Shown piece after piece: positions 9,364 to 29,143 of a stretch of 38,358 nt of DNA. How positions within the stretch are numbered: the first letter of the stretch is position 1; every line of letters begins with the position of its first letter. The notes beneath the pieces are model-generated. The model saw only the letters and a list, made by a program, of their open reading frames with translations. It was not told the origin of the DNA and searched no databases. The translations under genes and the position numbers were made by a program. Source of the DNA: Clostridiaceae bacterium (GTDB lineage Bacteria > Bacillota > Clostridia > CAYPLH01 > DUMO01); assembly GCA_012839865.1 (NCBI GenBank), contig DUMO01000050.1, forward strand, positions 1 through 38,358. The letters run 5' to 3'.

Positions 9364-9771
9364 TTAAATTGATACGCTCATTACTTTAATAGGACATGTC
9401 CTGACACATAGTTCGCACACAACACACTTTTCCTTATTAAAAGTAAGAGACCAGCTGTTCTTGTCCATTGTGAGGGCTTCCGTCGGACAAACAGCCGTAC
9501 AGGCACCACAATGAACACAGCCTTCCTCCTGCCAGATTATTGACCTTGTAAACAGCCTGATATCAACGCCCTGTTCTTTCAAAAACTTAAGACCTTCTTC
9601 TATCTTAGCCTCTTCACCCGTTATGTCCGCTACAAGCTGCCCGATTTTGTTAAGCCCTACATTTGCATTCAGTATGTTAACTTCAAGATCATAATCCTTT
9701 ATCAAATGATATGTTAAGGGTTTTGTCACTATATCCGGACTAAACCTCATGGATACTTTTATTGTTTTCAA
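9364..9771 (-). CDS. NIL-domain / 2[4Fe-4S] ferredoxin protein of the homocysteine pathway
   Basis: 135 residues. The N-terminal NIL domain (about 1-75) is the ligand-binding fold also seen at the C-terminus of MetN. The C-terminal ferredoxin domain has two complete cluster motifs, C85-C88-C91-C95 and C116-C119-C122-C126. Family knowledge: together with a DUF39 protein, such proteins support conversion of aspartate semialdehyde to homocysteine using sulfide in methanogens and some anaerobic bacteria, probably supplying electrons to reduce a sulfur intermediate. Start codon is TTG with GGGAGGGGG 4-6 nt upstream. The start overlaps the DUF39 stop as TTGA, indicating translational coupling and tight stoichiometry. 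Confidence 0.9.
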   Translation of the reverse strand: MKTIKVSMRFSPDIVTKPLTYHLIKDYDLEVNILNANVGLNKIGQLVADITGEEAKIEEGLKFLKEQGVDIRLFTRSIIWQEEGCVHCGACTAVCPTEALTMDKNSWSLTFNKEKCVVCELCVRTCPIKVMSVSI

Positions 9772-20740: not shown

Positions 20741-22831
20741 TTAATGAAAATAATCGTATATCTTCCGAGCCACTTTTTCGCTTATTCCCTCTACGGCGGT
20801 CAAATCGTCAATCCCGGCAGCCTTTATGGCGCTGACGGAGCCAAAATGCTTCAGAAGCAGTTTCTTTCGCTTTGAGCCTATGCCTTCTATTTCATCCAGA
20901 GCAGATTTGGAATACCTTTTACTCCTCAATTTTTTATTGTATTCAAGGGCAAAACGGTGGGCTTCGTCCTGTATCGCCGTTACCAGCCTCAAGACCGGCA
21001 TGTGCCCATATAAATCGATTTCCTTTCCGTTTACAGCAAGTCCCCTGGTCTTGTGCTTGTCATCCTTAACCATGCCCAGAACGGGAATGGAAAGATTAAA
21101 GTCTTTCAGTACACTTTGCACGGAATTTACATGTCCCACTCCCCCGTCCACCAAAATCAAATCAGGCATTTTGGAAAACTTACCTGGTTTTTCTCCTTCT
21201 TTCACCATCCTCAACAAATCTTCTTTGTTTATCTTTGCTTTCCCGGAGCGGACTTTCCCTGCATTTTCCTTCGAGTTCTCCTTTGTGTTCTCCTCCATAT
21301 TTTCCTTTATGTTTTCATTTTTATTCTCTGCTGCATTCTTCCCTGCACTTCTCATTACATTTTCCCTTGCATTTGCCCCCACAATCTCCATTGCATCTTC
21401 CTTTACATTTTCTTTCTTATTTTCCCCTGGGTTTTCCTCTGCATTTTCCATTGCTTCTTCAATCGCATGCCTGAACCTTCTTGCAGTTGCCTCCTGCATG
21501 CTTTTGTAATCATCCTGCGAGGCTGTGGATTTTATTTTAAACCGCCTGTAATCCCTCTTTGACGGTTTCCCTTTTTCAAATACAACCATGGATGCGACAA
21601 TATCGGATGAACCGGTATTTGAAATATCATAAGCCTCAATTCGTTCCGGTATTTTATTAAGACCTGCCAGTCTCGCAAGGGTTTCCAATCCTTCCTCGCT
21701 CTTTGCCAATTCATTTTTATTTTGTTCCAACGATATCCTGGCATTTTCCTCAACCATTTTCACCATTTCAAGCTTCTGCCCGCGTTTTGGAACCGTAATG
21801 GCTACCTTTGAGCCCTTCATTTGGGAAAGCCAGTCACCAATGATGTTCAATTCTCCTAAAGCATCTTCATCAAGATATTTCCCCTGTACAATTATTTCCC
21901 TGGGCAACGTTTGAGCAGCTCCATAAAACTGCTTTAGGAATGAAATTATGAATTCCCCTTCCTGGGCTTCGGTCTGGTCAAACAAAAAATGCTCCCTTCC
22001 CAGGAGCTTACCGCCCCTCACAAAGAACACCTGAATACATGAATCTGTCGCATCGCTTACCGCTGCAATAATATCCTGGTCCTCCATATTTGTGGACAGC
22101 ACTTTTTGCTTCTCTGCAACCTGCTTCAGACTGTTTATTTTATCTCTTAGAACTGCCGCTTTTTCAAATTCCATATTTTCCGAATATTCCTGCATCTGTG
22201 CTTCCAGTTTTCGCATTATTTCTTCATGCCTGCCGCCCAGAAAAAGGCAGATGTCCTTCATTATATTACGGTATTCTTCCTTGTTGACATTTCCCTGGCA
22301 CGGGGCAATGCATTGACCTATGAAAAAATTAAGGCACGGTCTTTCTTTTCCAATATCCCTTGGCAAAACCTTTTTACAGCTTTTTACCGGAAACAGTTTT
22401 CTTAAAAGGCTTATTGTATCGTTAATCACTCCCACGTTCAGATAAGGGCCGAAATATTTTGCTCCGTTCTTGTCAATCCTGCGGGTTTTCAGTATCCTGG
22501 GATATTCCTCGTTCATGGTGACTTTTATATACGGGTAATGCTTGTCGTCCTTTAGCAAAATGTTAAATCTCGGCTTGTATTTTTTAATAAGGTTGCACTC
22601 CAAAATCAGGGCTTCCATTTCACTGTCGGTTACAATGTACTCAAACTCCTTGATGTATGAAACCATGGCAGCTACCTTGGGAGTATGCTTCACCGCATGA
22701 AAGTATTGCCTTACTCGGTTTTTCAGCACAACCGCCTTGCCTACATATATAACTTCGCCCTTGTCGTCCTTCATTATATAGACTCCGGGCTTTTCGGGCA
22801 AATTTTTCAGTTCTTCCTGTATATCAAACAT
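20741..22831 (-). CDS. uvrC: Excinuclease ABC subunit C with a repetitive insertion
   Basis: Dual-incision nuclease of nucleotide excision repair. Domains in order: GIY-YIG nuclease (KPGVYIMKDDKGEVIYVGKA, 14-33), a Cys-rich region (C152, C166, C174, C178), a UvrB-binding UVR motif (about 200-235), the RNase H-like endonuclease domain (about 385-625, with EAYDISN at 399 and VDGGVGH at 561), and tandem helix-hairpin-helix motifs (about 645-696). At 696 residues it is longer than the usual 600-620. The excess sits inside the RNase H-like domain at residues 457-552, a Glu/Asn/Lys-rich insert (ENIKENMEENTKENSKENAG). Both flanks of the insert are conserved and catalytic residues are kept, so the enzyme is probably active. 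Start ATG with AAGGTGG 6 nt upstream. Confidence 0.95.
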   Translation of the reverse strand: MFDIQEELKNLPEKPGVYIMKDDKGEVIYVGKAVVLKNRVRQYFHAVKHTPKVAAMVSYIKEFEYIVTDSEMEALILECNLIKKYKPRFNILLKDDKHYPYIKVTMNEEYPRILKTRRIDKNGAKYFGPYLNVGVINDTISLLRKLFPVKSCKKVLPRDIGKERPCLNFFIGQCIAPCQGNVNKEEYRNIMKDICLFLGGRHEEIMRKLEAQMQEYSENMEFEKAAVLRDKINSLKQVAEKQKVLSTNMEDQDIIAAVSDATDSCIQVFFVRGGKLLGREHFLFDQTEAQEGEFIISFLKQFYGAAQTLPREIIVQGKYLDEDALGELNIIGDWLSQMKGSKVAITVPKRGQKLEMVKMVEENARISLEQNKNELAKSEEGLETLARLAGLNKIPERIEAYDISNTGSSDIVASMVVFEKGKPSKRDYRRFKIKSTASQDDYKSMQEATARRFRHAIEEAMENAEENPGENKKENVKEDAMEIVGANARENVMRSAGKNAAENKNENIKENMEENTKENSKENAGKVRSGKAKINKEDLLRMVKEGEKPGKFSKMPDLILVDGGVGHVNSVQSVLKDFNLSIPVLGMVKDDKHKTRGLAVNGKEIDLYGHMPVLRLVTAIQDEAHRFALEYNKKLRSKRYSKSALDEIEGIGSKRKKLLLKHFGSVSAIKAAGIDDLTAVEGISEKVARKIYDYFH
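21176..21463 (-). repeat. Low-complexity repetitive insert coding region in uvrC
   Basis: Encodes residues 457-552. Short units of 12-15 bp built around AARGAAAAY are repeated irregularly, giving xxEN/KEN runs. On the plus strand it reads as a T/C-rich tract with CATTTTCC recurrences. No stop codons or frameshifts are present despite the repeat content. Confidence 0.85.
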
Positions 22832-28261: not shown

Positions 28262-29045
28262 TCATCTTTGACCGTCAGGTTCAGGCGGTTCAATTTTGCC
28301 TTGCCCGTCGGATAAATCAGGTGGAGTAATCCTTCCCGGCATATCCGGCGGTATTGTTATTCATCTTTGACTGTCGTCAGTTTCACCGGGCGGTATTATC
28401 CTCCATTGACCGTCTTCACTTTCGCCCGGTGGTATTATCCTCCATTGCCTGTCTGACATATCAGGCGGTACTATCCACCTTTGCCCGCCAGAATTATCGG
28501 GTGGCACAATCCTCCATTGACCGTCTGGTATATCCGGTGGTATTATACTTCTTTGATTGTCGTTAGTTTCGTCCGGCGGTATTACCCTTCTTTCAGAGCC
28601 TTCTTTTTTATTTTCCCCTCCGATGCATATACCATCATCTATTTTGGGAGCAGGAATCCCTATTTTATCGTTGGTTTCCGGTGGCGGGAGCAATATAATG
28701 GAACACTCTTTCCCAAAGGTATTGGCTGAATACCTCACCACATCCTCCCTTTCAACAGAAGGTATCTGCAAAGGTTTCCTTTCATCTGTTGTATTCTCAT
28801 TCGTTGCATTTTCATCTGTTGCGCTTTCATCAGGCGTGTTTTCCAAAAGAGTCTTGCCCGGGTCTGCAAACTGGCTGCAGAGAATCTTTTCCCCAGGCAT
28901 CCACTCTTTTTCACTGAAACAATCTTCCGTAATATCCGTATCCTGTCCTGGAGTGTCCCCGGCATCCTGTGCCTGAATTGAATATGAAGGAACAAATATC
29001 ATTAATACAAGCAAAAAAAACAATAAGTTTCTTCACTGTCAACAT
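28262..29045 (-). pseudogene. Probable full extent of the IPPD-repeat gene, interrupted by a frameshift and a TGA
   Basis: ATG at 29045 follows AAGGAGG by 8 nt and encodes MLTVKKL, a fitting signal-peptide N-region. The frame shifts at an eight-A run (29013-29020 on the plus strand). With seven A residues, the reading would continue directly into the hydrophobic core and repeats. At the other end, after the TGA at 28361-28363, the same frame stays open for 32 codons that continue the repeats (ITIPPDMPG, RITPPDLSDG, IEPPEPDGQR) to a TGA at 28262-28264. The first TGA follows QR where another unit has QRW, consistent with TGG to TGA. Decay, phase variation or sequence error are the options. Confidence 0.65.
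28361..29023 (-). CDS. Secreted repeat protein with IPPD repeats (frame as it stands)
   Basis: 220 residues in the uninterrupted frame. It begins with a hydrophobic stretch (FFLLVLMIFVPSYSIQA) that looks like the back two thirds of a signal peptide, followed by an acidic spacer with DESATDENATNENTTDE. From about residue 140 come repeats of 11-13 residues of the form R-I-[IV]-P-P-D/G-x-x-D-x-Q-W. The only start for this frame is a TTG at 29023 without a ribosome binding site. The good site AAGGAGG lies before an ATG at 29045 in another frame (see the longer entry). No enzyme motif is visible; a surface or matrix role is only a guess. Confidence 0.6.
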   Translation of the reverse strand: MFFLLVLMIFVPSYSIQAQDAGDTPGQDTDITEDCFSEKEWMPGEKILCSQFADPGKTLLENTPDESATDENATNENTTDERKPLQIPSVEREDVVRYSANTFGKECSIILLPPPETNDKIGIPAPKIDDGICIGGENKKEGSERRVIPPDETNDNQRSIIPPDIPDGQWRIVPPDNSGGQRWIVPPDMSDRQWRIIPPGESEDGQWRIIPPGETDDSQR

Positions 29046-29143
29046 ATCCGGCACCTCCTTGAAAAATGGCATTGGCTGGTTTTCCCAGACTATTTGTTAA
29101 TCCACTTCCACATAAGAGACGCTTAATTTACAAAATTTGTTCC

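Follow-up and report, generated by a model that had tools for sequence, protein, structure and literature searches.

A T8 run parts an orphan IPPD-repeat frame from its probable start signals in a Clostridiaceae bacterium

On the minus strand of the 38,358-nucleotide stretch of Clostridiaceae DNA analyzed here (the window), an ATG with a strong Shine-Dalgarno (SD) sequence leads into a run of eight Ts, beyond which a long coding-like frame continues one base out of register (Table 1). We read this locus, with about even confidence, as the inactivated (OFF) allele of a lineage-specific gene for a secreted protein that was broken by one slippage insertion. The product would have been a small Sec-secreted protein of about 230 residues, signal peptide included, with a C-terminal array of IPPD repeats. 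Ordinary replication slippage would have inserted one T into the T-run within the signal-peptide codons and thereby turned the gene off, so that ribosomes initiating at ATG 29045 would now produce an out-of-frame peptide of 44 residues. In the repeat frame, the first stop would probably be a copied array end (or a point mutation), and the last 32 codons would be remnants of the array. The loss looks recent, since neither codon use nor the 220-codon frame has eroded.

Table 1. Positions of the features of the repeat-protein locus in the window
Feature	Position	Strand	Remark
Shine-Dalgarno sequence AAGGAGGTG	29052..29060	-	9/9 match
ATG, probable true start codon	29043..29045	-	
T8 run (A8 on the + strand)	29013..29020	-	Point of loss of the signal-peptide frame
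Main open frame, 220 codons	28361..29023	-	TTG 29023 to TGA 28363-28361
Short 15-nt repeat, about 3.5 copies	28780..28831	-	DESATDENATNENTTDE region
IPPD units u1-u6, 12-13 residues each	28364..28585	-	36/39-nt period
CAAAGATGA	28361..28369	-	First in-frame stop, end of unit 6
32 more open codons, units u7-u9	28262..28360	-	Ending in second CAAAGATGA (28270-28262)

Read on the minus strand, the start region has the order AAGGAGGTG-CCGGAT-ATG TTG ACA GTG AAG AAA CTT ATT G TTTTTTTT GC. The frame opened by ATG 29045 encodes MLTVKKLIVFFACINDICSFIFNSGTGCRGHSRTGYGYYGRLFQ* and closes after 44 codons, with many stops beyond, and the main frame lies one base off it. The initial annotation had described a good ribosome binding site and an ATG running into an eight-base A/T run, and had proposed that seven bases would give a perfect signal peptide. 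Its coordinates and description are correct, and a T7 run would indeed link the ATG to MLTVKKLIVFLLVLMIFVPSYSIQA-QD, which reads from the sequence as a canonical Sec signal peptide. A 9/9 SD match at proper spacing is found at just 7 of the 38,353 ATGs in a sample of 60 stretches of the same genome (0.99 Mb). The length of the T-run, which separates the ATG frame from the main frame, sets the reading frame, as in phase-variable genes; equally, a coding-like frame is severed from its own start signals, as in pseudogenes.

The main frame consists of a putative signal-peptide core, an acidic and Thr-rich region with four cysteines, and then the repeats. Its coding character was scored with codon log-odds from a training set of 496 long ORFs in this genome, a measure whose median at 90 codons is 0.195 for coding and -0.152 for off-frame sequence. 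The main frame reached +0.25 bits per codon at positions 29012-28740 and +0.17 at 28739-28560, with the other five frames negative in both segments, and the repeat part, which has an odd composition, scored about zero in every frame of its strand. Judged by the rarity of the SD and by codon use, the ATG with its SD and the pair of frames are more than chance. No decay beyond the T-run and the TGA is visible in the gene.

The repeat frame stays open for 32 codons past the internal TGA, up to a second TGA at 28264-28262, as had been noted before. The internal TGA sits in CAAAGATGA, which is the gene's own last nine bases and occurs in the window at these two sites only. Over the last 15 bases, the end of unit 6 (GACAGTCAAAGATGA) and the gene end (GACGGTCAAAGATGA) agree at 14, the second best match among the unit ends compared (u2 and u5 match at 15). 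The resemblance suggests that unit 6 may derive from the terminal unit, with the stop codon copied too, or the terminal unit from unit 6. Because the internal TGA shares CAAAGATGA with the gene end, a damaged Trp codon is not required to explain it; the earlier description, a TGA where a repeat Trp would stand, is right about the TGA, and the lost Trp is just one of two readings. Organism-wide use of TGA as Trp was rejected, since Trp is encoded by TGG across the organism and 143 of the 496 long ORFs, with 2204 TGG codons in them, stop at TGA.

Nine IPPD units were counted, six ahead of the internal TGA and three behind it, in agreement with an earlier estimate of about nine. Units are 12-13 residues long, apart from the shorter u7 (9) and u9 (11), and the repeat copies are 61-83% alike. 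The periods of the array (36 and 39 nt) and of the other short repeat (15 nt) are all multiples of three, so a change in unit number leaves the reading frame as it is, and the suggestion that the repeats are themselves a contingency-type feature is not supported. Of 36 rows of tandem arrays that lie in coding segments of the genome sample, 34 have a period divisible by three, which is what selection for frame would produce. Among u1-u6, pN/pS was 0.49 (column bootstrap 0.26-0.93, an interval that nearly reaches 1), and over all units the differences per codon were highest at position 3 (0.51 versus 0.33 and 0.21). This excess at synonymous sites among the units suggests that the protein was probably once constrained. 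Elsewhere in the sample, a coding segment at L101:8270-8526 is dense in the six-base tandem repeats TCGGGC/TCGGAC.

Homologues of the 220-residue frame were sought in its own genome, the 60 nearest genomes, 391 genomes of the class and 398 of the phylum, as well as in GTDB contigs, IMG/VR, plasmids, PDB, Pfam and NCBIfam, and these searches returned nothing but low-complexity matches. One match (G531, E 1.1e-4) was rejected as repeat-region similarity with two internal stops. No second tract-length allele appeared in the own-genome, class, phylum or GTDB contig searches. Synteny through the neighboring Gfo/Idh gene led to four loci with 73-76% identity (L004-L007), whose downstream genes are unrelated, and the closest genome by ValRS (G392, 77%) gave no match to the target or to its flavodoxin neighbor. 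The genome is the sole member of its order among those in the collection used, and the gene is a lineage-specific orphan present in no other genome searched. Since no relative was found, comparison does not separate phase variation from RNA slippage, or either of them from decay or a sequencing error; we infer the ancestral state of the run, because no intact allele or relative was seen. At singleton orphan frame transitions, gene overlaps, sequencing errors or indel mutations are expected (PMC3711429).

Long A/T runs are avoided in the genes of this genome. With synonymous codons shuffled within each gene, 31 T8 runs were expected in long genes and 7 were seen, a roughly four-fold avoidance that is an upper estimate, as the long genes were picked as intact and frame-breaking runs were thus already removed. 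By the same shuffle and under the same limit, T9 or longer was seen once (about 11 expected) and A9 or longer three times (about 24 expected). The T8 depletion fits a mutation-prone run, as expected. Within the 0.99 Mb, 53 A/T runs of at least 8 lie wholly inside one coding segment. A scan of the same 0.99 Mb, from which some start-proximal frameshifts could escape and in which 21 runs at segment edges were read singly, yielded no second start-to-coding frame broken at an A/T run of at least 8. One of these edge runs, at L111:5096, is a T8 that keeps the frame of another, intact signal peptide; the A8 at L114:8512, close to an overlap that involves a TTG start, is ambiguous. The broken T8 is neither a genome-wide artefact nor a member of a visible switch family. 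The junctions called by a frameshift HMM, judged as a list and not case by case, were mostly ordinary gene neighbors. Five junctions (L079:7606, L093:17777, L118:1971, L128:1524 and L127:2894) show a change of coding frame without a normal stop or start and are candidate frameshifted genes.

A slippage insertion is the most economical account of the locus, followed in likelihood by a sequencing error. The contrast in SD sequences, the coding-like frame, pN/pS, the T8 depletion, the lack of another broken frame in the sample and the orphan status all speak for slippage inactivation; the lack of any intact allele or relative in the searches, the lack of further decay and a pN/pS interval that nearly touches 1 speak against it, as does the identical picture that an error in sequencing or assembly would leave. 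Under such an error, which we consider somewhat unlikely, the chromosome would carry T7 and the gene would be intact as far as the first TGA. The assembly is a draft of 89 contigs, one T fewer restores a textbook signal peptide, codon use in the main frame is healthy, and single frameshifts in orphans are partly sequencing errors (PMC3711429). However, the 53 runs inside coding segments of this same assembly and the in-frame T8 at L111:5096 argue that such lengths are not generally misread. A start at TTG 29023 would remove the frameshift altogether. It is the start that an automatic ORF caller would choose, and the frame open from it begins with a hydrophobic stretch, but it has neither an SD upstream nor a positively charged n-region, whereas an ATG with a 9/9 SD and two lysines lies 22 nt upstream in a different frame; of all the readings we find this one the hardest to credit.

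Replication slippage between seven and eight Ts could also toggle a secreted or surface protein. Listeria inlA, in which short A/T tracts close to the 5' end are reversible (PMC2831843), and a Bifidobacterium G-tract that links a Sec signal to a pilin (PMC9187656) offer precedents alike in logic and location; against phase variation stand the shortness of T8, the avoidance of long T runs in this genome, the lack of a second gene of the kind in 0.99 Mb and the single known allele, and we hold it to be unlikely. The initial annotation had offered decay or a phase-variable or slippage-controlled gene, which the data bear out in part: early decay fits everything seen, and switching or slippage control, a live option, finds no support, the run being shorter than in known slippage genes and the sample showing no second such frame. 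That this isolated clostridial lineage uses the T8 in the signal-peptide codons as a deliberate on/off or leakiness device for the secretion of its lineage-specific repeat protein seems slightly less probable again. RNA polymerase slippage or a ribosomal +1 shift on U8 would allow the T8 gene to yield some product in frame; U8 is homopolymeric, a Phe tRNA in the P site could pair again at +1, and slippage on an A11 tract rescues the broken tssM gene of Citrobacter (PMC4256274). Transcriptional slippage is nonetheless less likely at T8, because selection against it is visible at nine A/T in many bacteria (PMC1088944) and because a one-base deletion or two-base insertion would be required, transcript deletions in homopolymers being rare in E. 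coli (PMC5574713). The run, at 8, is shorter than the nine or more A/T associated with such slippage, and the searches gave no relatives in which it could be conserved. An RNA structure that stimulates ribosomal frameshifting is likewise unsupported, structure around the run being unremarkable (z -1.0 and -0.4), and we rate rescue at the RNA or ribosome level as quite improbable.

The locus resembles several known systems. As in the A6/A7 alleles of Listeria monocytogenes inlA, which encodes a surface protein, a short A/T tract lies near the 5' end and one base alters the frame, but there alleles and reversion were measured (PMC2831843), whereas this locus offers a single allele and no relative. 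The sortase-pilus switch of Bifidobacterium breve, also acting on a surface protein, similarly places a tract between a Sec-signal frame and the remainder; it involves a G-tract, several loci and measured length variation (PMC9187656), in contrast to a T8 at one locus known from its sequence. Thermus dnaX (A9; PMC1088944) and Citrobacter tssM (A11; PMC4256274) share with this locus a homopolymer between two frames of one protein, although their tracts are at least nine long, compared with eight here, and have proven products. If the tract varies in the population, an environmental clostridial lineage would join the bacteria that switch secreted proteins via A/T tracts in signal peptides; unless such allele variation is demonstrated, the locus is ordinary. 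The present data record an orphan gene with a broken frame in a genome in which long coding T-runs are avoided rather than used.

Other genes of the window, all on the minus strand, have features of their own. UvrC (20741-22831) contains a long degenerate repeat insertion (ENAEENPGENKKENVKED...KENSKENAGK) right ahead of its PDLILVDGG motif, and a 23S rRNA m5U methyltransferase-like protein (92-1648) contains an internal degenerate repeat of about 60-70 residues (ELAEGLVSNFP...). The gene at 9768-10934 matches methanogenesis marker 16 below the cut-off, in a bacterium, and the next gene after it (9364-9771) carries ferredoxin-like Cys motifs.
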